A stretch of 64,000 bases of DNA, from positions 35,833,732 to 35,897,731 of the forward strand of contig CM059572.1 of the NCBI GenBank assembly GCA_030386875.1, in the 5' to 3' direction. Numbering within the stretch: position 1 is the stretch's first letter; the number at the start of each line of letters is the position of its first letter. Under the pieces are notes generated by a model that saw only the letters and a program-made list of their open reading frames with translations, ran no database searches and was not told where the DNA came from. Position numbers and translations under genes: made by a program. The stretch is from Morinoia aosen. Lineage: Eukaryota; Arthropoda; Malacostraca; Amphipoda; Talitridae. Of the stretch, positions 7,834-46,800 are shown one piece after another.

Positions 7834-10800
7834 GTGTGTATTTCTTGTGTTTGCGCGCTCGCTTGCCTCATTTTAGCGGAGAGCAGCCTGCAGCACCAAA
7901 CTTCCTGTTCTGATGCTCCAGCGTGCTGTTGAAAAATGGTGGTACTTAAAATTAGACTTGGAGTGTATTTTTCGAGCTTTAACACGGAATGGGTTTCCAG
8001 TACTCGCTATTAGGTTCAAATTAATGAAATTTATCCTGAAATACTTTGAAAATTTATTTTTTTTCCTTAATTCCTTTTCCTATTTTTCCTTCGGTACTTA
8101 GTTTCGTGTATCGATTATTGGAGATACAAATGATCAGGTGCCGTGAAATGCTTGGAAACCTGATTGAAATATTAAATTCGCTATGGCGTTGAGAAAGATT
8201 ACGAACGCACTAATGAGCATTTATTAACATACAAGCGAGGCAGTGCGTATCTTTGCTACAGGAAAACTTGACATGTAAAATATCAACTAATCTACGTTCA
8301 TGGAGTGGCTTTTCTTGCCAACCCTTCATTAGGTTGATATACCTACAATGCAGTGCTAATAATACAATTTTTTTCATCAGAAACCAGGTCTGCACCCCAG
8401 TGTGAAGACGGCAGCCGCTGGATGCAGGACAACTGCAACTGGTGCAGCTGCATCAACGGCGTCGGCGTTTGCACCAAACGCGCCTGCCTGCCTAGTACGT
8501 TGTGGGTCTCTGCTGTGTGATTGGCGGGACGCGTTGTTTGTGAGATATGTTCTTAAAGTTATGGATGATCGATCTGTTTCTTCTATCTGTTTTTGATTGA
8601 AGTAATTTTTGTTTTTCGTGTCACACTGTCGTCAGAAAATTGTACATGTCTCAACCATTGGTTCAGTTATACGAACTTTGTTTGAGATTCTGGCGTATCG
8701 CTGTTTTTTAAATGCAATAGAAAATCGTACGACTCGGTTGTGAACCCCAGCTCCTTGTGGTTCTATACATAGCAACAGTATAAAATGTTACCACTGTTTG
8801 CAAGGGACTTGTATATTCCTTTGCGAGGTCGTGTTTTTACTCGAGAAAAACAAACTAATCCCTAGGCCCACAATCATTATTTCTGCCTTTAACACATCAA
8901 GAAGTTCATCGGAGCATGCCAATGACATTAAAACGTTAACTGCGGCGGGTTAAACTAAAGCTCATTATTCAACTCAAATTAGAATAAATTTTAGTGATCA
9001 GTTTTGAAAATAACGAATGCTAAATTGATCGTGCCTACATTTAGTGTTCTCCTAGCATTTATGAAAATTGAATTTGTGACTGCTAGTCGGCCAGGAGCAT
9101 TATAAAAATTCCCTCAGTGGCCACCGGTTGGTCACATCTCAGTCAAAGTGTTGATGTTACCACCTCGGTACGTCTGTTGCAGAATGGGCTGTCGAGAGGG
9201 CATCAGCGCAGGTAGCGGCTGGGCGCAGCATCTCTGCTGCTGATGACGGTGAGTGTGCCCAAATATAAGCAACTTGACACGACTGGGGCTGTTCTGAAGG
9301 GTATTGTCCTTCACCGCATTTTTGGGACTTAGCGCTTATCGAATATATTCAGGGCTCTTTTACTGCACTCATAATACAAGTCTCCTTCATTTCGTGTTTG
9401 TTTCATGTATTTCAGGTTTGTTTCCTTCATTTTTAGTATACTGGTTATGTCTGTCCCTGTTAGTAGTGTACTTTAAGGAGCTATAGTGCTGCCCAGGGCA
9501 AACGCTAGCTAAAGACAACGTCAAAATCACTTGTTGTTCGAGATTGTTTTGTGTATAGATTCGTACGAAACGTCGTTAGTTCTTCCCCCAGGGAAGTTCA
9601 CCGATAACTGACTGCTTTCAACCCTTGTAAAAGTCTGCATTGGTTGTAGTGGTGATTTTATCTTAGTGTTAATTATACATTATTTGAATACAAATACTGA
9701 AATAGTCTCTTGTGAGCTTAACTTAAGCGTTACACAAAGCCATGAGAGTCTTTGTTCCCTCTGCAGCGAGCGAGCCCGAATGTGAAGCGACAGGAGGACG
9801 TTGGCGCGATGGCTGCAACTGGTGCCGCTGTTCTGAGACCGGCGGCAGGGCGCTCTGCACCAGACGCGCTTGTCCCCCACGTGAGTAAACGAACGCTGTC
9901 GTGCATCGAGCTTGTTTGTATTGGTTGTGATTCTAATTTCCTTCGTGTCTTGTGCACCAGACGCGCTTGTCCCCCATGTGAGTAAACGAACGCTGTCATG
10001 CATTGAGCTTGTTTGTATTGGTTGTGATTCTAATTTCCTTTGTGTCTTGTGCAGCAGACGCGCTTGTCCCCCACGTGAGTAAACGAACGCTGTCATGCAT
10101 CGAGCTTATTTGTATTGGTTGTGATTCTAATTTCCTTTGTGTTTTGTGCACCAGACGCGCTTGTCCCCCACGTGAGTAAACGAACGCTGTCATGCATCGA
10201 GCTTGTTTGTATTGGTTGTGATTCTAATTTCCTTTGTGTCTTGTGCAGCAGACGCGCTTGTCCCCCACGTGAGTAAACGAACGCTGTCATGCATCGAGCT
10301 TGTTTGTATTGGTTGTGATTCTAATTTCCTTTGTGTCTTGTGCACCAGACGCGCTTGCCCCCCCCCCCCCCCGTGTGAGTAAACGAACGCTGTCAGGCAT
10401 CGAGCTTGTTTGTATTGGTTGTGATTCTAATTTCCTTTGTGTCTTGTGCACCAGAAGCGCTTGTCCCCCACGTGAGTAAACGAACGCTGTCAGACCACGT
10501 GCTCGTATGGGTCGTGATTCTAATTTCCTTTGTGTCTTGTGCACCAGACGCTCTTGTCCCCCACGTGAGTAAACGAACGCTGTCAGGCATCGAGCTTGTT
10601 TGTATTGGTTGTGATTCTAATTTCCTTTGTGTCTTGTGCACCAGACGCTCTTGTCCCCCACGTGAGTAAACGAACGCTGTCAGGCATCGAGCTTGTTTGT
10701 ATTGGTTGTAATTCTAATTTCCTTTGTGTCTTGTGCACCAGACGCTCTTGTCCCCCGTGTGAGTAAACGAACGCTGTCAGGCATCGAGCTTGTTTGTATT

Positions 10801-13800
10801 GGTTGTGATTCTAATTTCCTTTGTGTCTTGTGCACCAGACGCGCTTGTCCCCCGTGTGAGTAAACGAACGCTGTCAGGCATCGAGCTTGTTTGTATTGGT
10901 TGTGATTCTAATTTCCTTTGTGTCTTGTGCACCAGACGCTCTTGTCCCCCGTGTGAGTAAACGAACGCTGTCAGGCATCGAGCTTGTTTGTATTGGTTGT
11001 AATTCTAATTTCCTTTGTGTCTTGTGCACCAGACGCGCTTGTCCCCCGTGTGAGTAAACGAACGCTGTCAGGCATCGAGCTTGTTTGTATTGGTTGTGAT
11101 TCTAATTTCCTTTGTGTCTTGTGCATCAGACGCTCTTGTCCCCCACGTGAGTAAACGAACGCTGTCAGGCATCGAGCTTGTTTGTATTGGTTGTGATTCT
11201 AATTTCCTTTGTGTCTTGTGCACCAGACGCTCTTGTCCCCCGTGTGAGTAAACGAACGCTGTCAGGCATCGAGCTTGTTTGTATTGGTTGTGATTCTAAT
11301 TTCCTTTGTGTCTTGTGCACCAGACGCTCTTGTCCCCCACGTGAGTGAACGAACGCTGTCAGGCATCGAGCTTGTTTGTATTGGTTGTGATTCTAATTTC
11401 CTTTGTGTCTTGTGCACCAGACGCGCTTGTCCCCCACGTGAATAAACGACCACTGTCAGACCACGTGCTCGTATGGGTCGGGATTCTAATTTCCTTAGTG
11501 CCTTGTGCACCAAGCGGGCTTGTCACCCTCGTAAGTAAACGAACGCTGAGTGCGTCAGACAACAAGCTTGTATGCTTCTAATTTCCTTTTTGTCTTGTGC
11601 CTATTGGCGTTGGTTCGTGAGACGTGTTGTACTGTTGGCAGTCATGCAAGGAAGTGTATAGGAGGTTGTCCATATAATTTCCTTCGTGTCATGTGCCTCT
11701 AGTGATGATACGCGTGTCGTATTTATGCCTGCCGAACTATGTTCCTCAGTTAGTCCTGAAAAAAGTTATTTTTTTTGTGAATGAGATATTATGTGAATGC
11801 TCTTGAATGGAATATTGAAAGTATAAGAACTTCACAAATAATTCGTATGATTCTTTCGAAAATACGAGAATTTTCAGGGAATTAAATTCTTATTCCTTAC
11901 GTCGTGGTGTATCAGTTAAAAATACAGCAAACTAGTGTTCAAAAAACTTTGATGTTAGACTACACAATTCAATTTTGTGCACTGTTGATTATTATTTTAA
12001 CAGGCAATTTCCATAGGAGACAAAATTTATTTTTGAATTTGGTGTAATTATCACAGGAACCAACGAAATCCCATTTCACAATTTTCAGACTCATGTAACC
12101 ATGATACAACAGGGTCAACGAAATCCTATTTCCAATAGCGTGTGATCACATCAGGGTTCAACAAAACACCTCAACAGCTTAGAATTCTAACAGTGCCCAT
12201 CATCATCACATATCACAAAGAAGTGTAACTGTTGTGCAGTGATCATAGAGAAGCTGAACGACACGCCGGTATGTGAGGACGGTGCCCGCTGGAGGAAGGA
12301 CTGCAACTGGTGCTCCTGTCACGACGGTCGCGCTGCCTGCACGGAGAAGGCGTGCCTCTCTGAGCCTGCGCCCGGAGGTGGTAAGCGTTGTTGCTCCCAC
12401 TGCCTTTGTAAATAGCAGCGTTTTGATCTAAATCGGAAGTCGATTCTTTAATTTCTACTTCGATCTCGGGAAATGTGTGAATCTCTACCTGAATCTCGGG
12501 GAATGTGTGAATCTCTACTTGAATCTCGGGAAATGTGTGAATCTCTACCTGAATCTCGGGGAATGTGTGAATCTCTACTTGAATCTCGGGAAATGTGTGA
12601 ATCTCTACTTGAATATCGGAAAATGTGTGGATCTCTACTTGAATCTCGGAAAATGTGGGAATCTCTACTTGAATCTCGGGGAATGTGTGAACCTCTACTT
12701 GAATCTCGGGGAATGTGTGAACCTCTACTTGAATCTCGGGAAATGTACATATTAATCTCTTAGCATTATTAGTATTAAGTATTAATTTAGTATTAATTTT
12801 CTTAGCATCGGAGTCTCAGCAGGAAATTACTCGACTAAATCGAGGGTGATTTTTCGATAGTTTATACAATTTCTAGGATGATTTTTCGATAGTTTGTCGA
12901 AATACCACCCTAGAAATTGTACAAGCTATCGAAAAAACACCCAAGATTCGACGATGAAAGTTTAACCTTGGTCTACTCGTCGACGATATTTCGGTACGTT
13001 TTGATGAGAGGAGGTTGTCTCTTCACGCAGATTGACGTACCTTCTTGCGCCGTCGTCCGAGCCGCGTTTTGAAGGCCTGAAGCGCCAATTCATCTTTGGT
13101 GTGCTCACCAGTATTGCACTCATCAGTATTGGCCGGTGAAACATATTCCCACATCGTATTGAAACAACAATTTATTCGATTCTACAGTACGCACTTGAAG
13201 TAGAGTAGAACTGCACTTTTTAAATCAATTTTTACAGTAATAAAGAGAATCCACATAGTTTTAGTGTGATATCTTCGTGAGAACTCGTGTTACGATGAGC
13301 TGAAATTTTTTGGATCACGTGAAGTACATTCAAACGTTAGTTTTTTAATGATTTTAAACGTTTTTACTAGCGAATGCGCTGCCAAACATAATTGTTGAGA
13401 AGCTCACGATTGAAATACAAAATCTCCTTCTTTATGAAAAAAATAAATAAATAAATGTAAGGTAAATTATATCAGGGCCTGTTCATTTTTTTATTGCACT
13501 TAATATTTGGACGACAACTTTCTTTCCTACTATTTTAATCAGCAAAGAAATATAATAAAGCATGAAAGAATTAGCAATGCACACAATCATATATTCCCTT
13601 ATGTGAATGAAATTAAACAATCCTACACAGAAAAAAACTTTCATTTCACCACGAAGAATTTTCACTGTTCCTTTTATGGCATTTTTCTGGTACCAAAAAT
13701 TATTAGCTTGTCAATGGCAGTGAGAAGAACGAATCGTCAGACAAGGATTGATGCAGGACTGCCTGCTTACGGGCAGATGACCCGGCACCTTCTTGTAGTG

Positions 13801-16800
13801 GTACCGTTGTGATACCCAATTGCTCTTTTCCCTACCTTCGAGTTTACTTTCAATAAATTGAGATTTTGAATAGTTTTCCAAATTCCTTTAATTAGGTAAA
13901 ACTGAGCTGGGCGGTGGCTCTTGATCTTCGGATCTCATGTCCTATTGTATATTTATTTTTCTTCAATTTGGCCTACCTTCCAGGGCCTCCAAATTATTCA
14001 AGAAATTTACTGTAAATTACCTGGTCGAAGTTATTCCAAATTGATCAAATACTTTGGGATGTAAAGTAAAAACTTCGAATGGTTCTGGCAACCGCCAGAG
14101 GACAGCACGAACCCGATTTTGAGGCGAGGAGTATGCGCACGGAATGAAAAAATTATCCAAAAATGCTTACATATCCTGACAAAACAGGTTCAAACACTGA
14201 TAACAAAGTAGGTAGCGCCATTCAGTAAAAAAGAAAAACCAGAATATCAAAAACTGAACCCAATGATCGAGGCGACTCCAAAAACAGAATCTAACTGTGG
14301 CGACCATAAACTAGAGCACTGAAGGGAAAACTAAATTTAAATTATTGAAATAATTTATTTACCACTGGTGATACAGAGGTAGATATTCTTTGATAGACTC
14401 TCACTCGAAGAAGCCAGAAAATGCAATGAAACAAAAGGACGCTAAGATGCAAACAAATTACCAACAACGGACGACAGAAAAACAAAAATCGAACCTACTC
14501 TCAAAATAATCTTGGATGAAACGAAAACGCAAAACCTAGCGGGAAAAGAACGTAAATACCCAAGTTGCAGTAAAGAATCAGTAATTAATCACATACTTTC
14601 AATCCTTCAAAGATTTTCATTTCTCTACAAAATCAGACTAATTTAAAACAATTCAAAGTCTTAGAAACTAGTCGAGCCTGGAACAAAATTGGGTTCCGTC
14701 CGAGAGAAATCGGAAGGGATGCCCGCCTTTTTTTTCTTGAGGTCTTTGCCAAAAGAGTTTAACTGGTGCTCTCTGGGGGCAGAGCTGCCTTTACAAAAAG
14801 TTGGAAAAACTGCATGAAACTTATGAAATCAAAGGAGATGGAGAATACACAACACGTAAAAGTTATTAGTCAGCAACAAAAATTTGATTTCATTCTCAAA
14901 TTCACTGGAATAACTTGTAGGCAGCTGTTGAAGTAAACTTTCTCATTATCCGTCAGTAGCTATGGGAGGGAAGGTTCATCCAGTTTAATTAGGTATTCGA
15001 GAAGCGTAAAACTAGAAATATTCAGTGACGAGATGAAGACCTCATCTGTATGGAGACCAATTAGGAGACCCTTACTGGACCCAATGGTATCTGCGTTATT
15101 CTGCTCGGAAAGATAATTGTCCATTTGTGAAGTAAACCCAGCAATTAAGTTTTTATCCAGTTATCTATCAGAGTTATTAACCCTCAGTTTAACAGCAATT
15201 TTAGATATCAATTACCTCTTACCCAGACAAAACCCTACCTATGGAATTTCTTCTCAAATGAAGCCACGAGAGCCTCTTTTAGAGAGGGGTAATTCAACAA
15301 GGGGTAAAAAATAATGAAAGGAAGACAGAAGTACAACGCCGTTCAGAGCTTAATTACGAAGGAAGTTCCCCTCTCAATGCGCTATGCCTCAAAGATAGCC
15401 AAATGTCCTCTTAGAGCAGTTGAATGGCCTGACCTTTAAATGGTAATGAGGCTCGACAGAGCCAAATACTTGATGGGCTCGACGAATCCTGGTCGGAAAT
15501 GGGCTCTGAATGATTAACACTATGAAGTAAATATAAAGCAAACTTATTCAAAATAAGAGCACGATCTAAAAGAAGAAACTCAAATCACAGAAGAAAAGTT
15601 TGAGTCAGTGCACAGACGTTGTGCAGCATTTTTTCTTGAGGTTTAGGTCATCTTAATTTGGTCGGTTCAATGCGCGGAAGCGGTCAGAGCTTGGTGCGCT
15701 AAAGCCTAAACGGTAAATTTAAGTCTTATAAGAATTAATAAAAAAACTCCCCGACGTAGCAACCTTCTTCGCTCCCAATCATATGACTCCGATACAGTTC
15801 AAACCAATTATGTAGCGGAAAGAGGCCCGAGGATATTGTTCACAAATCTGTAAAATCCAATTAGGTATAAATAAATGTAACTCAGAGGTCTAAAGATCAC
15901 AGTTCAAATTTTCCCCAATTCAAAAGGGAAGCAATACATTTTAATTCCAAACCTTGATTATTCCTCAGTCCAACTCTCACAACCATGAGACTGCTCGATG
16001 TGTAAATTCGCTAAAAGTTTTAGACTTGATCTTGAAGGAAAAATCAAACTGCAAACTGGCGGCAGCGCGTCACCGCCATAAAGAAGAAATGCCAGCCTCA
16101 ATCTAACGAAATCAGTAACAGCTCAAAGCTAGGAGCTGACCAAACCACGACTCTCAAAATTTATAGAAACATAATATCAATCTTTGACTGTGGATCAATA
16201 ATCTATCACTCGGTAAGCCAAACAACTTTAAAACCCTGGAAATTAATTACATGCGAGGCCCTTCGAATCACTACCGGAGCAATTAATTCTATCCCAACAA
16301 GCAGTCCGTATGTTATATTCAATGAAATGCTCCCGACATTGGGTAAATTATCTTTCATTGTGCTCTTACTACCTAATCTGAAGCCAACTGGAAACCCCCG
16401 CTTTTAACTATACGGTAACGCCAAGCAATCAGCTACTCTTCCAAAACAGGACAATGATGCCAACTTTTCCTATCAGATTGTAAATTTTAATCGAAGAATC
16501 CAACTTGCGTGAACTCGAATAAAACCAAACTTTTCATGTACATAGACTATCAAACATCATGGGCATGGTACGACCAACTATAAATATAAAACTCGACTCC
16601 CCAGAAATGAAACTCCTGAAGCCATAATTTATCAAGAGTTTAAACGATTAACAGAAAATTACGATAAATAGGGTGCTATTTACACAGACGGCTCACGGGG
16701 AGAGAGGTACTGGCACCGCAACAGTGTGTCGTTGTGCCATTGTTCTCGCCGCAACACTCTCGAAAGAGGCCTCAATATATTCGGCTGAAATACACGCTGT

Positions 16801-22800: not shown

Positions 22801-25800
22801 AAGTTACATTTTTTTCGAGGGTTTAGCCCCGTTCATCATTTAGATTGCCAAACCCACTCATCAAGTTCCCAGAACAAACTTTTTTCCAATTTTATAGAGA
22901 AATTTCGTCCTCGGCCACCGGTGGCGTACGTAGCAGTAAAAGTGCTCATGTAAATGCTTTCGCAGAAGACGGTGCGTTTGAGACGAGATCCAGAGCAGTG
23001 GCCCCAGGCATGCCAGACCGCGTGTCGTGCGAGGCTGACAGCGTGACAGCGAGGTGGCGTCACAACTGCAACTGGTGCCGCTGCCTCGAGGGCCTTAGCG
23101 CCTGCACCAAGCGGGGATGTCCGCCGAGTGAGTACCCGTTTTCACTGTTCCCTTTACCACATTTTACTGGCGCTGAACTCTTTTGTGTGGAAATTGTGAG
23201 TATTGCGGAGGGAGTTGTAGGCCGTTACAAAAGCCCCGACGCTGTCGGCGCTCACCATCAAGTTCAAGTAACGTAGCGAACCTTGCTCCAATCTCTCGCG
23301 CCCTGTAGCTGAATGTCAGACACGTCACCGAATAGCCACATTTTGTGTTGAAAACCAAATGTACCCAAGTGATATGATTTCTAAAAATGCCAAAGTATTG
23401 CATCCCCCCCACGATAAAGGTCACAGATGTGAAAGTTTTATTTTAGAAATTTTTTTTCTCTTCGTTAAGTCTTGGTTGATGATGGCTGTTATCCCGAAAT
23501 GTTTCCATTCATTATGAGTTTTTACTGGTTTATCCTTGCCCTACTGTTTCCAATAAACCACGGGATATTCCACCAAATTTGCTTAGAGATTGCTCCGCGA
23601 AGGGCTATTTTGATATTACCTGCTGAATGGAACCGTTGGATCATGAGTGCATTTGGACTGCATGTATATCTCATACGTCTGTTCAATCCATCCTGTTTTT
23701 ACTTGCTTGGTAACTGTGCAGTTTGGCAAAACATTCACGATTGTAGAATATATGATTCCCAGAAACTTCAAGTACGGATGTCATGCGACGTCTAGTTCTA
23801 ATATATTGACGTCAATCGGATATCAAATGTTCGATAAGGTTTTGCAAATTCAAGGTGTGCGTTTTAATAAATTAGAATTCGACAAACCAGGTCTGCGGTC
23901 ACGACTGGAAGGCACTCCACAGTGTGAAGGAACCGTGCGATGGAAGCAGGACAACTGCAACTGGTGCTCCTGCCAGAACGGAACGGCAGCCTGCACCCTA
24001 ATGGCCTGCGTCAACAGAGACGGTGAGCTGTGCCAGATTTTCTAACAATTACGCCGTGGTGCACTGTAAGTTCTTGTTGCAATTTAAGTTACACTTAACG
24101 TTATTGATCACGACAAAATCTTCAAGCTTGTGCTTTTTCAAACATAATGAGAGCAATGATCATCTGGCTACACTGCTTGTTTATCTAATTCTATGAGTAT
24201 ACAAATAGACGACATAAGTGTTTTTTAACATAAAGAACAGATTATCTAGCAGCACTGGCTGTTATCTAATTCTATGAGGATGTAATTAGAATACATAATT
24301 TGTGTATTTTTGAACATGCAGCACAGATCATCTAGCTACGCTACAAAATAATCACAGTTTATTAGTACATAGAGTACAGCACTTCATAAGGCTCAAAGTC
24401 TAGTCACCCCCAGAAACAGTTAATTCTAGTACGGGAAGACACTGCTTCCACAAGGTTTTTTCAAATGAAATAAATGTACGAGGAGTTCGTGGGCTCGAAC
24501 TCAGGACTAGAGATCACCGCGCCAACACGCTATCGACTGCGCTGTCGATCGACAGCGCAGTCGATAGCGTGTTGGCGCGGTGATCTTTAGTCCTGAGTTC
24601 GAGCCCACGAACTCCTCGTACATTTATTTACTTCATAAGGCTTTAAATGAACGCTGCGAACGACTGAATTGAATCCAACACCCTCTCACTCTACAGAGTT
24701 CAGCACTTCATAAGGCTTTAAATGAACGCTGCGAGAGACTGAATTGAATCCAACACCCTCTCACTCTACAGAGTACAGCACTTCATAAGGCTTTAAATGA
24801 ACGCTGCGAGAGACTGAATTGAATCCAACACCCTCTCACTCTACAAAGTACAGCACTTCATAAGGCTTTAACTGAATGTTGCGCGAGACTGAATTGAATC
24901 CAACACCCTCTCACTCTACAAAGTACAGCACTTCATAAGGCTTTAAATGAACGCTGCGAGAGACTGAATTGAATCCAACACCCTCTCACTCTACAGAGTA
25001 CAGCACTTCATAAGGCTTTAAATGAACGCTGCGAGAGACTGAATTGAATCCAACACCCTCTCACTCTACAAAGTACAGCACTTCATAAGGCTTTAACTGA
25101 ATGTTGCGCGAGACTGAATTGAATCCAATACCCTCTCACTCTACAAAGTACAGCACTTCATAAGGCTTTAATAGAACGTTGCGCGAGACTGAATTGAACC
25201 CAACACCCTCTCACTCTACAGAGTACAGTACTTCATAAGGCTTTAACTGAACGTTGCGCGAGACTGAATTGAATCCAACACCCTCTCACTCTACAAAGTA
25301 CAGCACTTCATAAGGCTTTAACTGAACGTTGCGCGAGACTGAATTGAATCCAACACCTTCTCACTCTACAAAGTACAGCACTTCATAAGGCTTTAATAGA
25401 ACGTTGCGCGAGACTGAATTGAACCCAACACCCTCTCACTCGGCAGAGTTCCCACAAAGGCCTGAGGAGGAGCAGCAGGGACAGGTGTACGAGCCGGACT
25501 GCGTGGCGGGGTCTCGCTGGACGGAGAACTGCAACCATTGTCAGTGTGTCGACGGTGTCAAAACCTGCACGCTCATGGGCTGCCTCACAGGTTTGTGTGT
25601 CATCTACGAGGACGATTGCTTTTTTGCCTCAAATTGGTTATTAAATGTGTTTTATTCTTCTATGCAAGTTTAAAATGCATTTGGCGTACCCTTTTCCTAA
25701 TGTTCATTTACAGTTAACGACGAAATTATTCGTGCACCCCTCCTCTTTCAAAACCTTCTAGAATTGGTCACAAACTATTGTTGCCATATGTATAAGATTT

Positions 25801-28800
25801 TCACAGGGTGTGAAGCACATTAGTGAAAGTAATACGAAGTTTCTAAAACAAGCAATATTTTTTGAAAGGTTCAACAAGCTGAACTTCAGAAACACGATAA
25901 AGCAAAATTATTCATACAGTGAGAAGTATTACACTTTGAGGTGAATCCATCATTTGAGTACATCTTCAATAATCAATAGCGTGACCTTTCATCTTCATAA
26001 CATTTAATAAGAAATAACTTCAGGGCAGCTTATACTTCAATCGCGCACCCACAATCATTTTATATTGCTCTATCAAATACTACGATGACCTATTGGTGCG
26101 TGGAACATTTACTATCCACGTAGCAGTTACAAACTGAGTAGAAACTCATGCACCGCACCACGCCTGCCCACTGGAAATTCAGGGAGAACTTTAGCTTTGC
26201 TTGGTGTCTGACAAAATTCATGTGATTTTGCCGCGTGCAGAAGTAGAAGACACGTGTGAGGAAGACTCCGTGTGGAAGCGGGACTGCAACTGGTGCACTT
26301 GCAAGGAAGGCAAGCCTGCCTGCAGCAAACGCGCGTGTCGGCCTGTACCAGGTGAGCAACTCTCCCATAACACTTAGACCGTAATTGGTTCAGCTTAAGT
26401 TCAATACTCAACTCAAATTTAAACTCAATTGTAATAGCAACTTTGAAATTAGCAGTCATTAGCGGGATCATTCAATTATTTAGCTTTAACTTAGTATTTA
26501 TGAAAATTGAGTTCATGGCTACTAGTCGGTCAGCAGCATTATGAAAATCCTCTCCGTAGCTACTGGTGGTGCACGTTGCGGTTAAAGTGTTTAAGAGTTA
26601 ATGCATTGACAAGTTTATGCTTACGAGTTTTAACTCCAATTCACTTTTCTCATTTGATTAGCATTCAATTCTGTGTCGGTGCACTTGTGGATCAGGCAAG
26701 AGTCCCACGTTACAGGATGGGTGCACTTGGTTACAAATAATAACTGCATTCCTACAATTAATGTTTTGCTGCGTTGACGTGTATGTTGCTAAACTTTGTT
26801 GCAGGGCCCTGGATGTTGCTAAACTTTGTTGCAGGGCCCTGGATGTTGCTAAACTTTGTTGCAGGGCCCTGGATGTTGCTAAACTTTGTTGCAGGGCCCT
26901 GGATGTTGCTAAACTTTGTTGCAGGGCCCTGGATGTTGCTAAACTTTGTTGCAGGGCCCTGGATGTTGCTAAACTTTGTTGCAGGGCCCTGGATGCTGCT
27001 AAACTTTGTTGCAGGGCCCTGGATGGTGCTCAACTTTGTTGCAGGGCCCTGGTTGTTGCTCAACTTTGTTGCAGGGCCCTGGTTGTTGCTCAACTTTGTT
27101 GCAGGGCCCTGGATGCTGCTAAACTTTGATGCAGGGCCCTAGATGTTGCTAAACTTTGTTGCAGTGCCCTATATGTTGCTCAACTTTGTTGCAGGGCCCT
27201 GGATGTTGCTCAACTTCGTTGCAGGGCCCTGGATGCTGCTCAACTTTGTTGCAGGGCCCTGTATGTTGCTCAACTTTGTTGCAGGGCCCTGGATGCTGCT
27301 CAACTTTGTTGCAGGGCCCTGGATGTTGCTCAACTTTGTTGCAGGGCCCTGGTTGTTGCTCAACTTTGTTGCAGGGCCCTGTATGTTGCTCAACTTTGTT
27401 GCAGGGCCTTGGACGTTGCTCAACTTTGTTGCAGGGCCCTGCATGTTGCTCAACTTTGTTGCAGGGCCCTGGATGTTGCTCAAATTTGTTGCAGGGCCCT
27501 GGATGTTGCTCAACTTTGTTGCAGGGCCCTGTATGTTGCTCAACTTTGTTGCAGGGCTCTGGATGCTGCTCAACTTTGTTGCAGGGCCCTGGATGTTGCT
27601 CAACTTTGTTGCAGGGCCCTGGATGCTGCTCAACTTTGTTGCAGGGCCCTGCATGTTGCTCAACTTTGTTGCAGGGCCCTGGATGTTGCTCAACTTTGTT
27701 GCAGGGCCCTGTATGTTGCTCAACTTTGTTGCAGGGCCTTGGACGTTGCTCAACTTTGTTGCAGGGCCTTGGACGTTGCTCAACTTTGTTGCAGGGCCTT
27801 GGACGTTGCTCAACTTTGTTGCAGGACCCTGGATGTTGCTCAACTTTGTTGGCCGAAGTTTCTATAATTACAGCCGCTTATTTGTATAACCTTTCTGATG
27901 GACTAATCGGGGAAAATAAATTTAATTCAGATAAATAAAACGTTCGTAGGTGAAAAACTCGGTGAAACAGTAACGCACTAAGTAGCTGTGAGCTTCACAT
28001 TACGGCTTCTCTGTGTCTTTGGGAGGACAAATGAAGCCCTATGCTGCAAAAATAGCTCATATATTATTTTTTCTGTTTTTAGAACTGTGATACGTTTCCC
28101 AGTTGCTCAGTAAAAATTTAACGTGTGTGTCTTGTATATTTTACAAAAGGATCTCAATTTTTGAGACGACTGAATTTGGGTAGGTGGTAATTTTCTTCAT
28201 TGACAATACGATTATTGCTTAATTGTACCCGACAATATGTGCGCCACACACGCTTCCCTGCCCCCTGTGGCTATATAAGCGGTAAGCTCCGTGGGGCCCG
28301 TGCTCAATCGACCTCGTATCTCGCCTGTACCTCACCTGCTACAGTCCACACAATGAAGTGCCTCCAAGAAGTCTACTAGCGTTTCACTGCCCCACACAAA
28401 TATTTAAATATGGGACCAAAAAGAATATTTAATGACTTCTAGATTATTGAATGGATTTAAAAATATATATATATAAATATACTAATGAAATTATTGATAA
28501 AAGGAATAATATTTTTAGATATCTTTGTAACCAAGATACGCAGTCTGGCATAAACGCCACATTCAAATGAGAAAAGCATACGATTGTAGCGTAACTCCAG
28601 AGGTGACAAGCTGGGCAAAAGAACTTCTCATCTTCGTAACAGCAGCCTACTCCAACTGAGGAAGGATTTTGAACTTTGAGGATACCTTGAAGGAAGAGGT
28701 TATTTTTACATGCAAATAAATACCGAAAAACGTTAGAACAAAGGAGCTGAGAGGGCAAAAAATGTCGAGTTGTACTTGAGCTGTCTTCGGAAAGCGCCTG

Positions 28801-31800
28801 TTGCGATACTTTTGGCGTTCAGGTCGGTCTGCTTAAGAAAAAAGAAAGAAAAACAGTTTCTTTCCAATAGAGTTAAAACATGATATTTTTAACATTGGCT
28901 TTTAAAATATCTTAACATTAAGAGCTTAGTTGATAATTACACATTGGTATCGTAATACCCATGTAAAATGCCGAAACAAAAAGTGATTGACTGAAAAGCA
29001 CAAGAAATGCTTAGCGTTTGTTCCGGTCGTGTTAGGCTCTGCAGCTTTGAGGTCTATGTTGTGTCGGGTGATCACATTTGGCGGCAGGAGTGTGAATAAT
29101 TTCCGATTGGAGAATACAGTAAGAATGATAGATATAAAGTATTGATAGTATTATTAATGTGTTATAATAGTATTAGTGCAAATAATTTTAATAGTCATAC
29201 GACCTGCAGAGAAGCTTCTACAAAGCGACTCGGTTGACGCAATGTAAAGGCTAACACCACGTACTTCATAATTTTCCAAGGAATAATTTAACCTCCCCTG
29301 TAGTGGTTAGCAACAATACCTAAAGACCAATTATTTTGCACAAAATTTCAATTGCGTTCGAATTCACGAAACACATTGCAAAAATTCTACGAACTCTTCC
29401 TCTCAAAACTCCGTTTAGATTGTAAATTTTTGAAATGTACACGTATCCTTTCAACAGAAAAAGAAGAGGAGCCTTCGCTAGGGACGTGCGTAGAAGGCTC
29501 GTCTTGGAAAGACGACTGCAACACTTGCTCCTGCCATAACGGAAACGCTGTCTGTACGCTCCGAGCGTGCATTGGAGGTACGTGTGTGTGTGTGAGTTAC
29601 AGAGGTTACAGAGTGAGACCTTAATTTGACTTTTCCTCATATCTCACTTTCTTTTTTTCAGTCACTCGTTTTTGGTAGCTTAAGATTCATCTAAACGAAA
29701 GAAATGTAGAATTCAAAAACCAGAAAGAAATTTTAGTTTTAATCTTACGAAATCACGGGTAAAAGTTTCCCATTTCTTTCTTTGCATTTCTGTCCTATGT
29801 TTCGTAGAAAACCCTGAGTACAAAAGTGACTCTTCGGACTAAATTTTACCTGTTCAAATTCCAGCGGCAGTTGTTTCGCATTGCATTGTGTCAGAGCAGC
29901 AGAATATCGAACTAAATCGAGGCACATCTTTCCATTTCGACAGTCGTGAGACCAGCCGTCATTCCTGACCCATCTCAACCGCAAATCGCAGAAAGACCAC
30001 GCTACCAAAATAGACCAGCAGTCATACCAGACCCCTCTCAACCTCAAATCTCAGAAAAACCACGCGACCAAGATAGACCAGCAGTCATACCAGACCCCTC
30101 TCAACCTCAAATCTCAGAAAAACCACGCGACCAAGATAGACCAGCAGTCATTCCAGACCCATCTCAACCGCAAATCGCAGGGAGGGGTCGCAGCTTCAGC
30201 AGACCAGCCGTCATTCCAGACCCGTCCAGACCGCAGGTACAACCTCGGCCCCGCACAGCGGTGAGCTTGCCGACAGACGACCGGGACTGCGTGCCGGGCT
30301 CCCGGTTCTCCATCGACCGCTGCAACTGGTGTACCTGCACCTCCACCGGCCGCGCCGCCTGCACTCACAAGGCCTGCTTCAAGCGTGAGTCTGGGGCTCG
30401 GGCCTTAGTTTTAATGCGCGAGGGTTGGTAGTTCAAGCGGGAGGGTTGTTTCAAGCGTGAGGGTTGTTGTTTCAAGTGTGAGGGTTGTTGTTTCAAGTGT
30501 GAGGGTTGTTGTTTCAAGTGTGAGGGTTGTTGTTTCAACCGTGAGGGTTGTTGTTTCAACCGTGAGGGTTGTTGTTTCAAGTGTGAGGGTTGTTGTTTCA
30601 AGTGTGAGGGTTGTTGTTTCAAGTGTGAGGGTTGTTTTTTCAACCGTGAGGGTTGTGGTTTCAAGTGTGAGGGTTGTTGTTTCAAGCGTGAGGGTTGTTG
30701 TTTCAAGTGTGAGGGTTGTTGTTTCAAGTGTGAGGGTTGTTGTTTCAAGAGTGAAGGTGAGGGGGTTTCAAGTGTGAGGGTTGTTGTTTCAAGCGTGAAG
30801 GCTATCATTTTAGGCGTGAGGGTAGAAACTTTGAGCGTGAGGGTTGTTATTTCATGGATTGCGGTTGCACAGCTTGCCTCAAGCGGGTATGTGTACGTGT
30901 GCTACGTTGTAGAAGTTTCTGATAGCCAATTAGGAAACGACTAAAGCGTTAATATCAACTATTTTAGGTTTACTTGAAACTTGATTCATCGTATACTTCT
31001 CCCCACATTCATTGGTAAATCATGTACTTTTGCTAACAAATTTTTTCTTCAAAAGTGCAATTATTTTCAGAAATGGACAAGGTGTGCGAGGAAGGCGCTC
31101 GCTGGAAGCAAGGCTGCAACTGGTGTGACTGCGACGGCGGACTGGCGAAGTGTACCCAGCTGGCCTGCTTCGACGGTACTGTCAAGTCGTGAACTCTTCT
31201 GTACAGTCTTGGCGTGACCGCACGGAAAAGCCGCTCTATGCCTCCTACCTACTAACTTTCCGGGATAAATAATTATTTATCTTGTAATTATAATTAACCT
31301 CCGTATTGGCATGATCACAACCCCCTTGCATCCCAATCTTTAATGCTATTGCGACCCTTGCAAGCTTTGTAGATGGTACCCTCGTCGCTTAATATTGTCA
31401 TCTGTTTCGTAATGGTATGCTCTAAGGACTCAATGTGTTATTGTCCTTCAATGTAGCAGTCTTCCATAATGGAGCATGTCTTCCATAATGGAGCATGTCT
31501 TCCATAATGGAGCATGTCTTCTAGAGACAGCCTATCTACTATTCTTCCAATGATTTCACTCGGGTCTTGTGCTAACAATAAAAACCTGGTTCATCATCTC
31601 TCGTATTGTTTCATGTAATATTTTTTATTTCACCTGAAAGAGAAGGGCCTCGTCTTTCGGACGGTCAGTCCGATTTGTGTTGCTTAATCACAACAAACAC
31701 CATCCTTCCTTGACTAAAATATGGCATGATAGAACAAATTTTACAGCTCCGTATTTCAAAACCGGAATAAGTGTGTTATAAGTTAGACTTTCATGGCCAA

Positions 31801-37800: not shown

Positions 37801-40800
37801 AAGTTCATATTCAAGTAACAACGCTTTCCTTTCAAATAAGCTGAAATGCTACTAAATCTGACATCACACTAGGCGCGAGAATATTCAAGTTTAAAAGAGT
37901 TTCAAGAACGATATGAAGAGCTCCAGAGTATGCGGGGACGACGCTGTTCTGCTATAAGTAAATCATGGCATAGCAATTAATTAAATTATAAAGTTGTGAA
38001 GAACAAGTTCCCCAGGGGGAGAGAAACCCTATGTTGTTGCTGTAGTGTAACTTTGAGAATCGCCTAACTTTTTCTGGGAAAGGGCTCCTATCTCGAATAC
38101 GTATAACAGAACGAGGAAAGGTTTTCTTTTCTGGGAAAGGGCTCCTATCTCGGATATGTATGAAAAAACGAGGTGGAACAAAAGCTCTTATGGCATTTTG
38201 TGCAGCGCCTCTCAAAAAAATAAGCATAGAAAGCTACTTACTTTTTATTTCAACTTAAATTCAAGCAAACCATTGTACCCGTGACCGAATCACGATTCTG
38301 ATATGTACTCGGCATACAAGAAGATGAGAATTAAATCTGACAAAGGAAAAAACAAATGACAAATGTTTGCTTAAAAGGAAAAAGACAACTTTGTCAAGTT
38401 CAGAGTAGAAATAGGGCGAAACTTCAATTAAAAACGAAACGCTCGTGTGTCACAAAACAAACATGTCTGAAATCGGTCCAAGTAAAATTAATTTCCAAAT
38501 TGTCTGGATCACTGCACTCTCACCGCTTTTGTCAAAGCAGAAAGCTGGAAATTTCGTAGGTATGTTGCAACACAGTATATGATTTATCGTTGAAACTCCC
38601 TCATGGGAATACAATTGTATTAATAAGGAAACTCCCTCATGGGAATACAATTGTATTAATAAGGAAACTCCCTCATGGGAATAAAATTGTATTAATAAGG
38701 AAACTCCCTCATGGGAATACAATTGTATTAATAAGGAAACTCCCTCATGGGAATACAATTGTATTAATAAGGAAACTCCCTCATGGGAATAAAATTGTAT
38801 TAATAAGGAAACTCCCTCATGGGAATACAATTGTATTAATAAGGATTAACACTCCCAGGGAGAAAATGAAAGATCCAGAGCTGAGAGCTAAATAGGCCTT
38901 CTTTTTGTTGAAATTAAATATGTTGTTTGTTGTGTTAAGTACCATCTTTTTTCGGTTCACTGCTCTCCTGTTTTTCAGCAACTCTAATTTTCTTCTTCAA
39001 CTTTTATGGATCTTGATAATCATCTTTCATAATATGCTATTTTTATGCTCAGAGGATCTTGCATAGGAAAACAACTCGTGCGTAGATTCTGCGTTCGCTC
39101 AACTCTTTACTTGAAATGCCTTTGTCGTGATTAGGAAGGCTTCAACTAATTTATCTATTTTAATCATCGTAGCAACACGAGCAGTTTGTTCGGTATGATG
39201 ACATTCTAGCTGTGTGATATATTTCAAGAACAAAGAAGGAATTTCAGAGCCTAAAATATGCAATGGCTTCTCAATTCACTTCTTGACTGCGGAAGTACAA
39301 ATCAAGTTTGCGCATGTTGATTCATCGAGATTATGCTTCTTCCCTGCTGTGAGTGCTTATGTGTAGTTGTAGAACACGTACGGCTTTGAAGAGAAAATCC
39401 GCGAAGTTTTTGATACAGTAAATAGTTTATACTGTGCATATGTGCACATATAACTGCGTGCACTGGACTAGCAACTAGCATATGTTATGGGTTACGCTTG
39501 AAACATTTGCTCTGGAAACAGCGTTGAAATTTGTCTGGAACATTTCAGGAGTGGATCAGACCGAAGTTGAGGACAGCTGTTCAGAAGGCGCCGAGTGGAA
39601 GCAGTCGTGCCTGGTGTGCCGGTGCGGCGATGATGGCAAGCCTCTTTGCTCCTCCAGCGCGTGTCCTGGTGAGGCTTCAGTAGTGCAGCTCCTGTGGGGC
39701 TCGAAAACTCTATTTCACAAATATTTTGAAACCAAATTTGTTGCTTTGAAACTTTGAAACCAACTTTGTTTCAAAATGCAATGCTTTGGGTCTTAAATTT
39801 ACAAGGTACAAGCATGCTGAGAGAGTCAGTCGTAGAAAATTTTAACGATGATCTAAGACCGTATCCTTTTTATGTTTTACAGAAACATAAGTCTAGCGAT
39901 CGTCGTGTGCGGTGAAGATTAAGTCTCCTTGTATCAAATGAACGATCCCTACATATTTCATTTCTTCTCCGTGGAGTGATTAGTAGAGCGTTTGGGAGAA
40001 AGTGTAGCTGTTTCAATGACTTATGACAAGGATTAATAGCACAAAGCATTTATCAGAGTTGACAGCTCGCTCTTTTGTTGAGTGTAGAAAACAGATAAGG
40101 TGGGTAGGAAAAGTTACAGGGCACGCCTTTTCACTCAATGAGCTCGTGCTTCCAGTTGCTTTAGGTTATGAGCTGAACCGAACTCTACTGTTACAAACGC
40201 AATAACAATCAGAAGCGACCAATAAAGATAAATGCATTTAAATCACGTACTCATCCGAGTTAATCTAATGCTGCAGTCAGACCTCGTCTAAAGAAACCAC
40301 AAAAATCTGTTGTTTAGAAATCACAAAAATCTTACTTTCTGTACAACATAATCATCTCTCTAAAGATCCCTTCCCACCATCAACAAAAAAACGGCAATTT
40401 TAAACCAGAGCTTCTATAACTACAGTTCAAATGTAAATAAACATCACAAAGTATTATTTGAATCGACGCAGGTTCAGAGGGAGGCAGTTCCGAAGTAAGC
40501 AGTAGCAACTCCATGCAGTGTCGTCCGGGATCCACCTTCCTTGAGGACTGCAACAGATGTCGCTGTTCCGACACAGGCCGCAAGCTCTGCACCAAAAGGC
40601 TTTGTCGTCCCGGTAATTAACGGGTCGTAACGCTCTATATGAATATTATTCCACTCGGGCTTTTTGATACGATGTTCGATATTCATGCTGAGCATGCATA
40701 TGGTAAGATCCGCTCCAACGGCATGTGTTTATGACTCTCCAATAGCTATTAGTGCGATAAAGACTTCTGGTGAGTTTAAAATTATGAGTTGTTTGAAAAA

Positions 40801-43800
40801 GCGACGAAAAAATGATGCAATCATATTAATTTTATGAGAAAACATTACTTTGCTTAAGTATCGAGAGTTCAAAGTCAAGTTAAGAATCTAGTACGGAAAG
40901 CTACTGCTTCCACAAGGTTTTTCAAACAAATAAATGTAAGTAAATGTACGAGGAGCTCACGAGATTAGAACTCAGGAACTTAAATTCACCGCACCAGAAC
41001 GCTATCGATCGCGCTACCGGCCACCCTGAGGGTGGCCGGTAGCGCGATCGATAGCGTTCTGGTGCGGTGAATTTAAGTTCCTGAGTTCTAATCTCGTGAG
41101 CTCCTCGTACATTTACTTACATTTATTTGTTTGAAAAACCTTGTGGAAGCAGTAACATTACTTTGGTGCAAGCAGAGCTGCATTCAAAGATTTCAGTAAC
41201 GTCTACATCAACTCTGTGGTTTCAAACTCTAGAAAAGCTAAAATTTCAGAAGCCGCATTTTTAAAACCACAAAACTTTATCTTAACGGTGTCAAGACTCT
41301 AGCAAGGCCGAAGTTCCAAAACCTTATTTCAAACGCACCTAAAGTTCATCGATGCGGCTTCTGACTAGCGAAGCCGCGACTGTAAAAGCCTTTTTTTAAA
41401 ATCCCCTCCTTTTTATTCACGCGGCTTCTGGCACTCGTGAAGCCGAGAATTTTAAAAACTCATTTTTTAACACACCTATTTAAGCTACGCTTCTCGGAAA
41501 CTAGTAAAGCAGCAATCCCAAAAATATCGTTTTCCTGTGCATGACTCCGACGACATCTAACCTACACACCTCAATGGTCTCAGGTTTGGCTCGGCCGGCT
41601 GGTCCGCAGTGCAGCGACGGCTCACTTTTCCTGGACAGCAGAAACTGCAACTGGTGCTTCTGCGACGACGGCAAGATTGCGTGCTCCCACTCAGACACAT
41701 GCGGTATGTTTTGGTTCGAACGCCTTGATTAATTTTAATTAAGGAAATTGCGCTTGAGTAAGTAAATTTTAACTCCTGTGCATGAAGTTTTTAATTCAAT
41801 TAAGAAGAAAACGTGCTTGAGTCGGTTGAAAATCCATTACGTGAGGGGCTAAATTTAATTAAGAAAAGTTGGATGCGTCGAGTGAAATTTCTCTTTGCGA
41901 GGGGTTTACTTTAGTTAAGAAAAAATGGTGTTGTTAGGGTTTGAATTTTCTTCCACGAGAGGTTTCATTTAATGAAGGAAAATTGGGCATAAATCAGTTG
42001 GAACTCACAAGTGAAACGGACCCGACCTAATGATAAAAAAATGGGCCAGCTTGGATGTAGAAAGCAAAGTCGAGGTCCACGATAACCAGGATTCAGATGG
42101 CTTTCTTACGTTTTCAGGCGTTGGCAGAGTTAACCTTTCGAAATTGCAGAAATTTGGAATGATTAAAAATGAACATTGCCTGCAAAGTTTCATTTTTCAT
42201 GACACCTCCTCGCCTTAACAGCGGTGTATACTTATCCCACACCTGTGTACTATGTTTCAATTCTTTCCAGAGTACAGCCTAGCAAACCATGTTTAACGAA
42301 ATAACTTTTAATTTTTTCCACATACGTAATTTTGAGTAAATTATCCTAAACTAGAGATATGAACTTCTTAACCTCCGCACTGGGATACTAAACACACATA
42401 CATCGCCCATAGCGCACTGATAGGCTGAAAGGTGAGCAACATACGTCGAACTAAATGTGAATGAGGAACGAAAGATAACCTCCCTAACAGTGCAATAGCA
42501 ACTTCATACATAGCGAGTTTTATACTTGCTCATTTCACTGCCACTTGATGCTGCTAGTCGTTAGTGATAATTAAAAACAAAAAACCCCTGGATATAATTA
42601 AATAAAATACACACAAAATTGAACATTCGAAGGTGTATTACGACACTATCTAGTATGTTCAACGCATTTGATGTCGTGGGAAAAACAATATTTTGTATAG
42701 TCAAGCGTTCGAAAGTGTAGTAATACCATATTGAGTACATTGAATGCATTCGAAGCCGTGGTAAAGTAATATTCAGAATTGCCAGTATCCAACATTTATT
42801 GAGACACACTGCTGGATCTTTCCATTCTTTGCTAAAACATTCTTTGGAATTTGAATTGATCCTGGCCGACCTCGACGATAATTTTGGAAACAGTCACCCT
42901 GCTTACGAACACTGCCCTGTATGTTGACGTGTGAGGGCGTTTGGAAAAAATGCCTGTATCGTAAGCTTGTTTTGTATAAGAACCTACACTCTTTAGCCCC
43001 TGGCGGCCCCTTACGCACAAACGAATCACAATTTATGAATTTATGTGCAGAAATATCGAAAACATTCTCTGTGCTCACACATTTTTTTAAACCCTTTTCC
43101 TATTCACAAAGTCGTCACTGCACTCCGACACTTTCATGATGATTTTAAATCAATTATAGCATTGAAAAACATATCACTTAATTTTGACACCTTCCTCATA
43201 AATGTCGATACAAGTTCAGCAATAACCAACGTGTCCCTTCACTCCGCTAATTTCCTCGTAACCGTAAAGCCAATTCTTTCCTCACTCCAGAATCCGCAAA
43301 GGCAAAGAGCGCTCTTCCGGCGAGCGTCATCAGTGCAACCGATGTCAACGAAGAGGCCGAAGGTGCTGCTGAGGAAGAAGCTTGCGATGAAGGCACTACG
43401 TTAGTACTGAAAATAGTAAAATTTGTCTACAATAAATGAAATTTCCATTCCTTTTCAGATGTTATTATATTTTATCGTCTTGGTTGCTCAATGTTCCTTC
43501 AGCCACATGAACAGCGTTATAAGTGCACGTGAGTAGCGATATCAACAAATGATATCTGATAGCACGCTGAAAAGTCAAAAAAACTAGGACGAGAAAGTAC
43601 CTACGGCAGAACAGCTCAGTTTGATTTATAAGAGTTACACACAAACACCTATGCTCACAGCTCACTACATGTGTGTAAGTAACACGGTATGCATAAGGTA
43701 CGTACATACAGTACCCCCTCCTCCGTTCGCGACTCACAGTTCGCGGCCCCGCATACTCGCGGATTTTGCTTTTTCAGTTTTTTTCATAATTTTTGCAATT

Positions 43801-46800
43801 TCGTGAATTTCTTTCACCATTTTTTTAACAGAACAATGCCCACATTCGCCCTTACAAATAAAAAGTTTTGATATAACAATGTAAGTAAATCTAAAATATG
43901 AAATTGGAAAAGAGAAATGAGAGATTACATATTATACCACATTATTATCGTTTTTAATTTTACATTTCTACATATTACTACATTATTACTGCATTAATGA
44001 CTGATACTGTCTTTAGAATGTTTATTAGGCATATTTTAGCGTGTGTAATATCTGTAATTAGGCATATTTTAGCGGGTGTCTTAAAACTGTTTCAACAATT
44101 CGCAAATTTCGGGATTCGCGGGAGGGGAAAGAACGTAAACACCGCGATTTGCGAGGGGATACTGTATTGATATCTCTGCGCATTGGTGACTGAAAGAGAG
44201 TTCAAACCAATCAACACCAGTGCCCACAGCTGGATGCATGAGTGTATACATTGATATCTCTGTGCGTTGGTGACTGCAAGAGAGTAACAGACCAACACCT
44301 GTGCCACAGCTGGATGCATGAGTGTATACATTGATATCTCTGTGCGTTGGTGACTGCAAGAGAGTAACAGACCAACACCTGCGCCACAGCTGGATGCATG
44401 AGTGTATACATTGATATCTCTGTGCGTTGGTGACTGCAAGAGAGTAACAGACTAACACCTGCGCCACAGCTGGATGCATGAGTGTATACATTGATATCTC
44501 TGTGCGTTGGTGACTGCAAGAGAGTAAGAGACCAACACCTGTGCCACAGCTGGATGCATGAGTGTATACACTGATATCTCTGTGCGTTGGTGACTGCAAG
44601 AGAGTATAACAGACCAACACCTGTGCCACAGCTGGATGCATGAGTGTATACATTGATATCTCTGTGCGTTGGTGACTGCAAGAGAGTAACAGACCAACAC
44701 CTGTGCCACAGCTGGATGCATGAGTGTATACATTGATATCTCTGTGCGTTGGTGACTGCAAGAGAGTAACAGACCAACACCTGTGCCACAGCTGGATGCA
44801 TGAGTGTATACATTGATATCTCTGTGCGTTGGTGACTGCAAGAGAGTAACAGACCAACACCTGTGCCACAGCTGGATGCAGAACTGCAACAGGTGCCGCT
44901 GCATCAACGGAGTAGCGCTGTGCGACCGCCGCGCTTGTGTCCCGTTCACAGAAGCCGACGAGTCGTCTTCTGCAGCAGCGTCTCCGACAGCGCGGTGCCT
45001 CAAGCCAGTCGACTCCGGGCCCTGCTTCGCCTCCTTCAGGAGGTTCAGGTAAGCCATTGTTGCTCATAGAAATTCTTGCTGGGGTAGAATCCCAAAAACG
45101 TCGACCAGTATTCCTGAGGTGCTTCTGTTAGACACTGATTTTGTGGGACAATGTTTTGGAGGAATCCAAATGACGCGGTCCAGTTATCCTGAGGTGCCAA
45201 GTGTAAAGCGGTTGATATCAATGTTCCATTTAGTCCGCAAATCATTGTTACAGACTCCTTAGCAGAGAAGGAATCATCATTGATAAGAAAGGATATAAAA
45301 GGATGTTTTATTCCAATCAAGTTGTAACGAGTCGCAAACCCCCAGTCGCTAACCCCCAGTCGCTAACCCCCAGTCGCTAACCCCCAGTCGCTAACCCCCA
45401 GTCGCTAACCCCCAGTCGCTAACCCCCAGTCGCTAACCCCCAGTCGCTAACCCCCAGTCGCTAACCCCCAGTCGCTAACCCCCAGTCGCTAACCCCCAGT
45501 CGCTAACCCCCAGTCGCTAACCCCCAGTCGCTAACCCCCAGTCGCTAACCCCCAGTCGCTAACCCCCAGTCGCTAACCCCCAGTCGCTAACCCCCAGTCG
45601 CTAACCCCCAGTCGCTAACCCCCAGTCGCTAACCCCCAGTCGCTAACCCCCAGTCGCTAACCCCCCAGTCGCTAACCCCCAGTCGCTAACCCCCCAGTCG
45701 CTAACCCCCAGTCCTACTTCCTCAGGTTCAATCCTGCCAACAAGAGATGCGAAGGCTTCTTGTACGGCGGCTGCGCTGGGAACGACAACAACTTCGAGTC
45801 TGCGGACGACTGCCAGCAGACGTGTGGAGGCGACTCACCTGTCTTAGGTACCACTTTGTGCCAAAATAACAAGTCTTGTATTTTATTTTTAGCATCAACC
45901 TTGCTGAATTTTTCCAGTTTATCATGCCTTAAAAGAATAAGAAAATTGATTATCATATTAACTGAAACACTTAATCGTCGATATTCAAATTCAATTGTTT
46001 ATTGGTTGATTTTAGTAAATTTGATAGGCAGTTTTTTCCGTCTTTTAACGCGTAATGCGCTAGGTTCTGCATTGATGAGGAATTAGGTCGGGATGAACAA
46101 TGTTTCACTTGCCTTTGGCGTTCTTGTACAGTAATCAAGTAATGTCAAGTATAACATTCGAGTCATATTCATTTGACACCGCGTGTACTTTTTGCCATCG
46201 TGGGCTCAATGGTACTGAAAACCTTTTCCGTCAGCATTTTGTACTCATATTACCGCCACCACCAACTGGCACTGGCATCAGGTTGTCACCGACATCAGAA
46301 CGAGGACGTAACAGTCACCTGACGGTAAACTCTAAAGAAGAGATTAAGGCAGAAATTTAGCGAGAAATACAATAAGTTAAGGCTGTTCTCGAACTGGGAT
46401 GTTATAGAGTTAAGGTCACACTCAAGCGCATCACCATAAATGAGCTCATAGTCTGCCGTTACCATTGTGACTTCCCATTACTTGCACTAATCTAGAAAAC
46501 AAATTTATTTTGGTAAAAAGTACGTGATTCTTTGAATGTGACACACTAACTGATCTAAAATATGAGATAAAATTCCCCGGTTGTCATGATTTCAAAGCTA
46601 TAATATGTTAGTGGAATATTTATAGTTTTACAATGGGATTAAAAATATATTTTTTGTTGAGCTCTTTCTTTACACTTGTTATTTTCATTTTTCGGAATGT
46701 AATCTTGGTTTACGACCGAGATTTTGATTGAGCCCCAGAGCTTAAAACGTTATAATTATTCGCTATAAGATATGAAACGTTAATTCACGTTATAACGTTA

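Follow-up and report, generated by a model that had tools for sequence, protein, structure and literature searches.

Mirages are minisatellite-like tandem duplications that cover exon/intron boundaries, donors as well as acceptors, in genes of amphioxus (lancelets). Minisatellites of the Adh gene, for which the amphioxus mirage papers cite Canestro 2002, are said to have units of 10-72 bp. Mirages have been described in the globin genes BflGb6 and BflGb9 (PMC3087553) and in PGBD5 (PMC3902484), and they are also placed in lancelet Adh and TnC. The units measure 60 and 108 bp in PGBD5 and 150-160 bp in the globin genes, and copy number is unstable (PMC3902484, PMC3087553). Here we describe arrays of the same structure in the amphipod Morinoia aosen, whose genome comprises 1.99 Gb in 29 contigs. 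The 64,000-nucleotide stretch analysed, hereafter the window (contig CM059572.1, positions 35833732-35897731), contains a multi-exon pacifastin/Kunitz inhibitor gene on the + strand, recognized from profile matches, translation and splice sites. The pacifastin domain is chiefly an arthropod domain. Amphioxus is a chordate, whereas the present genome is that of an arthropod.

Internal tandem repeats at exon-intron boundaries have also been described in human duplicated genes by De Grassi and Ciccarelli in 2009 (PMC2812944). As in the cases given in that paper, the arrays described below are boundary minisatellites in recent paralogs, with altered gene structure. By contrast, the human cases concern segmental duplications in which exon-intron structure changed, whereas here most exons appear to stay put while the introns enlarge. 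The Rogers model, in which introns are gained by tandem duplication of AGGT segments, is discussed for potato RdRp (PMC4974935), and repeat expansion for Cryptococcus (PMC2395259). The present arrays resemble the AGGT model in that a tandem duplication runs over splice signals, and differ from it in that the copies lie within introns, no new intron being shown. The earthworm metallothionein gene has repeats in intron 1 that the accessible text does not place at a boundary. In the open-access literature searched, mirages in this sense appeared only in the two amphioxus papers, and no arthropod boundary repeats of this kind were recognized. Because lancelet mirages have the same structure, the finding looks like a further case of a known phenomenon, from an apparently new branch of animals, with an excess at junctions that is measured but not yet general. 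A preliminary description of this DNA had known of no described system; the lancelet genes provide one.

Arrays at the splice junctions of one inhibitor gene

The preliminary description named five arrays in the gene and held that four of them, with periods of 97, 75, 21 and 80 bp, each included a splice junction. All five were recovered among the 21 arrays that Tandem Repeats Finder (TRF) called in the window. TRF and reading of the units placed the four periods at two donors (9881 and 30385) and two acceptors (25447 and 44853/44872); both boundary types are thus affected, as in mirages (PMC3087553). Array 2 stops ~5 bp short of its acceptor, and array 3 starts ~35 bp past its donor.

Junctions of the pacifastin exons were predicted from the DNA with phase-1 sites imposed. 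This procedure gave all 28 exons a candidate acceptor and 26 of them a donor, and several of these sites are weak; the acceptors of loci L011, L012 and L015 were then placed by hand. The window holds 14 pacifastin matches, of at least 28 in the whole genome, with a split Kunitz domain downstream on the + strand, two of whose junctions in the window's table are 1-2 bases off. The arrays and adjoining exons are as follows (a slash marks the predicted junction).

9767-9880, + strand: pacifastin-domain exon (PF05375, translation, splice sites); its final 25 bp lie inside array 1
9856-11548, + strand: array 1; TRF, 97-bp unit, 17.4 copies; 18 units counted one by one
24630-25441, + strand: array 2; TRF, 75-bp unit, 10.8 copies; acceptor region covered
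25447-25590, + strand: pacifastin exon adjoining array 2; acceptor CTCGGCAG/AGTTC
29944-30384, + strand: pacifastin exon ending at donor 30385
30420-30823, + strand: array 3; TRF rows 30445-30798 (21 bp, 16.8 copies) and 30420-30823
44166-44880, + strand: array 4; TRF, 80-bp unit, 8.9 copies; acceptor and first exon bases contained
44853-45048, + strand: exon with a shortened pacifastin domain and the first part of the Kunitz domain; start at 44853 (phase 1) or 44872
45330-45713, + strand: array 5; TRF, 14-bp unit AGTCGCTAACCCCC, 27.3 copies; ends 12 bp short of the following exon
45726-45847, + strand: exon with the second part of the Kunitz domain (PF00014, E = 2.3e-13)

The first 25 bp of array 1 are exon sequence, and its unit comprises the end of the exon, its donor and 72 bp of the intron. 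The donor CCCAC/GTGAGT at 9881 is copied through the array, GTGAGTAAACG being intact in 15 of 18 units. Fourteen of the 18 units have identities of 96-99%, two inner units 90% and 88%, and the penultimate unit 82%. In mirages, according to PMC3087553, edge units are excluded from homogenization; in array 1 the distal unit at 11506 has diverged to 72%, but the unit at the exon-side edge stands at 97%. The distal copy (11506-11548) would encode CTKRACHP, where other pacifastin exons have CTKRAC and the present exon CTRRACPP. Because this copy is nearer to the other pacifastin exons than the present exon is, the exon beside array 1 may have been homogenized with the array. A genome search with the 97-bp unit returned 18 matches, all inside 35843587-35845328, which is the array itself. 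Introner elements, by definition, have dispersed copies at many genes; the array-1 unit had no match outside its own array, and a dispersed element was ruled out for this array.

In array 2, direct reading revealed that the first unit joins the exon version AGAGTTC to the intron version AGCACTTC, with the microhomology AGAGTNC at the duplication joint. Judging from this join, two AGAGTNC motifs lying 75 bp from each other seem to have bounded the duplication. The array-3 unit, TTCAAGCGTGAG, resembles the donor TTCAAGC/GTGAG; the match beat all 200 shuffles (p = 0.005). The exon ending at this donor also contains a coding 63-bp (21-aa) repeat (29949-30180) that starts 5 bp inside it. In array 4 the acceptor lies inside the array whichever first exon base is taken, CCACAG/CTGGATGCA occurring in 9 of 9 units and GTAACAG/AC in 6 of 9. 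Arrays 1, 2 and 4 are therefore boundary-covering duplications like those of amphioxus mirages, and array 3 is likened to them by its donor similarity. Regular splicing is undisturbed in amphioxus mirages, as checked by reverse transcription PCR, whereas the present arrays are known from DNA alone. A fifth array had been proposed to carry a branch point. Array 5 ends about 12 bp before the acceptor, and CTAAC in its unit, which resembles a branch point, is a putative one.

The units differ from junction to junction. With the confinement of the 97-bp unit to its own array, this bears out the earlier proposal of independent births, as opposed to a single duplication. Since the periods differ and the one unit is confined within a 1.99-Gb genome, the arrays look locally seeded.

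Arrays at paralogous inhibitor loci

Beyond the window, arrays also end at the acceptors of two pacifastin exons, with units of 64-66 bp (73% alike) at L012 and of 82 bp at L015. At a third pacifastin exon, L006, alignment revealed decayed donor copies. TRF overlooks such low-identity arrays: decayed repeats near a junction were found by alignment at L006 and L049, and by eye at L051 and L078. At L015, positions 1-1080 are occupied by 120 copies of a 9-bp unit (CAGGTGTGT on the + strand), which lie downstream of the minus-strand pacifastin exon.

The Kunitz family was designated a control before any of its sequence had been examined. Of 27 Kunitz hits, 20 were taken, each with a 200-bp flank on either side. 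Splice sites were set by eye with the TRF output already known, and their positions carry a possible error of 1-2 bases. Both ends of L057 and the donors of L056, L058 and L064 were excluded, and the duplicates on contig C4 (L054, L060, L061 and L066) were left out of the non-redundant count. Weak rows were counted, namely L063 (a GT run beside the array), the L067 acceptor (a poor site) and L068 (28 and 35 bp away). On these terms, an array edge lay within -60 to +40 bp of 11 of 27 non-redundant junctions, or 15 of 35 with duplicates, a count confined to the 200-bp flanks; two of the remaining 16 junctions had an array edge at 40-120 bp. The clear cases are L050, where a 55-bp unit lies over the donor, and L053, L054 and L067, where 11-bp CAGGGTGAGGG runs from the donor onward. 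The L067 acceptor is less clear.

Four Kunitz loci on contig C21 (L053, L055, L059, L065) are nearly identical to the four on C4, with exons 97-100% identical, and the arrays clearly differ in two of the four pairs. At L053 and L054 the exons agree at 156 of 156 positions and the donor arrays differ: L053 has 7.4 imperfect copies followed by a copied exon end with donor, whereas the copies at L054 are near-perfect and number at least 17.4. Because near-identical duplicate exons carry differing arrays, array turnover looks fast. The length of mirages is unstable between alleles and somatically, as stated in PMC3087553; here the comparison is between the duplicate loci. As near-identical loci occur on two contigs and L060 has an in-frame stop, they may represent a recent duplication with one copy decaying, or misplaced haplotype sequence.

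We also examined 10 of 41 SH2 hits, one donor side each. No TRF array lay within 40 bp of any of the 10 donors, and the standard alignment test was negative at all 10. At L076 an array begins ~48 bp past the donor. At L070 the donor is duplicated once in tandem, the two copies agreeing at 20 of 21 bases (p = 0.002 with the target taken from 10 bp past the donor; 0.02 at the standard setting), and this two-copy state looks like an early stage of array birth.

Excess of arrays at inhibitor-gene junctions

The preliminary description implied that arrays meet junctions beyond chance, and placement tests uphold this for the pacifastin cluster. Over 200 contiguous kb, an exon-facing array edge lay within -40 to +40 bp of six of 51 junctions, against 1.27 expected under rotation (P = 0.0024); L015 lies outside these 200 kb and is thus absent from the 51. 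With independent re-placement and a zone of -60 to +40 bp, six contacts were again observed against 1.09 expected, and none of 2000 placements reached six. Within the window, an array edge fell in -60 to +40 bp at 5 of 30 junctions, whereas 5000 re-placements of the 21 arrays outside coding exons gave an expectation of 0.68 (P = 0.0006). This test is post hoc because the window had been flagged for the pattern. The recurrence of arrays at Kunitz junctions agrees with these results.

In a stricter test by alignment, a local copy spanned the junction at 10 of 76 junctions, compared with 35 of 1391 positions of comparable kind away from junctions (P = 5.6e-5, Fisher test). By family, the counts were 5 of 54 for pacifastin (P = 0.015) and 5 of 22 for Kunitz (P = 0.00026), the Kunitz junctions not having been passed through the eligibility filter. 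Finally, the near zone of ~7800 bp held 17 array edges and the zone beyond it, of ~8480 bp, held four (P = 0.002), with zone lengths computed by hand and a short outer Kunitz zone in which TRF is less sensitive. Nine of the 17 near arrays are at acceptors and eight at donors. The junction excess is thus established for the inhibitor genes, pacifastin and Kunitz, but not for genes at large, since the 10 SH2 donors had none. That an excess at junctions was measured is a further difference from the amphioxus mirages.

Origin of the arrays

We consider the arrays to be mirage-type minisatellites, formed by tandem duplication over exon edges at microhomology and later amplified, with a probability of about 0.72. 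A short segment reaching from just inside the exon into the neighbouring intron would first be copied in tandem when strands slip or mispair at a few microhomologous bases, and the two copies would then expand by slippage or unequal exchange. Selection would hold the exon fixed, so the array would pile up on the intron side, where its copies would carry dead or decoy splice signals. The slippage mechanism, the disregard of the copies by splicing and the cause of the preference for exon edges are what we infer from the structures described. Of the mechanisms suggested in the preliminary description, replication slippage explains the microhomology joint of array 2, while splicing intermediates and R-loops found no evidence.

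Several results weigh against this reading, and most of them would favour chance, whereby introns are rich in minisatellites, some arrays abut exons by luck and the lucky ones are noticed. TRF arrays are common everywhere, filling 9.5% of the 200 contiguous kb, so chance contacts with junctions are expected. Five of the six pacifastin contacts are in the window, and only one is among the 21 junctions of the contiguous cluster outside it; the SH2 donors are likewise devoid of near arrays. Cruder measures gave no clear junction excess: junction-centred 30-mers had a local copy matching at least 21 of 30 bases at 6 of 57 junctions, compared with 14.6% of all positions, and alignment at pseudo-junctions gave 5 of 54 for pacifastin and 6 of 29 for Kunitz, compared with 16% of 2448 pseudo-junctions. 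We judged the latter comparison unfair because array interiors were counted, and hence repeated it on edge-eligible positions, as given above. Under identical eligibility, however, pacifastin had a spanning copy at only 3 of 49 junctions, which is unconvincing alone, and a clear microhomology was resolved at a single joint, that of array 2. Set against these points are both placement tests of the pacifastin cluster and the Kunitz junctions, where near edges far outnumber those at 40-120 bp; chance is accordingly very unlikely as the explanation. Survivorship is only somewhat unlikely. In such a scheme arrays are born evenly, the tens of bases next to an exon are shielded from transposon insertion and deletion, and arrays deeper in the intron are diluted. 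It requires no special mechanism, suits a large genome and fits the similar numbers of acceptor and donor arrays. Shielding should fade gradually, however, and the edges drop sharply beyond 40 bp; survival is therefore unlikely to be the sole cause, bearing in mind the short outer Kunitz zone.

Two further explanations place splicing nearer the centre. An array might arise beside an exon and the boundary then shift to a splice signal within it, shortening the exon. The exon at array 4 fits such capture in that its first cysteine loop (CHSWMQNCN) is shortened relative to another exon and its acceptor scores poorly, as do the acceptors of L012 and L015. The array-free acceptors of L011, L014 and L021 are equally poor, however, and capture cannot account for arrays 1 and 3 because their donors retain the usual exon end and phase; we regard it as unlikely overall. 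Alternatively, junction arrays could be products of mutation tied to splicing or transcription, through R-loops, quadruplexes at G-rich donors or reverse-transcribed intermediates. The excess in two families is consistent with this idea, and the coding strand of some donor units is rich in G, as in the unit shared by L053, L054 and L067. But no joint that was read contained spliced or reverse-transcribed sequence, array 2 having plain microhomology; near arrays are as frequent at acceptors as at donors; and the SH2 donors lack them. This is the most improbable of the explanations weighed. A broader proposal, that exon edges are mutational hot spots in this lineage, with transcription- or splicing-coupled seeding across many genes, introns growing outward and mirages general in animals, is speculative, and we think it quite unlikely.

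Other repeats in the window

Two further features adjoin the gene's exons and arrays.

12450-12746, + strand: 30-bp array (TRF), 69 bp past donor 12381; by eye, the donor is absent from the unit
24394-24629, no strand assigned: insert with a near-perfect palindrome (24461-24629), read directly

The insert has ACTTCATAAGGCT on either side and splits the leftmost partial copy of array 2 off the array. By eye it is tRNA-like in places, and it could be a foldback or short interspersed element (SINE)-like element. Another 30-bp array, of 35.6 copies (26783-27851), has a unit with an acceptor-like TTTGTTGCAG/GG; it lies 424 bp beyond the nearest pacifastin exon, and several of its frames are open.

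Significance

If the excess extends to the whole genome, minisatellites would be born at exon boundaries in animals other than lancelets. The arrays would then offer a route, open to testing, by which introns grow, exons shorten and introns are possibly gained, and gene annotation would call for caution because many copies bear a plausible splice site. Since the excess has been measured in two inhibitor families, the question can be tested in any annotated genome of such kind.

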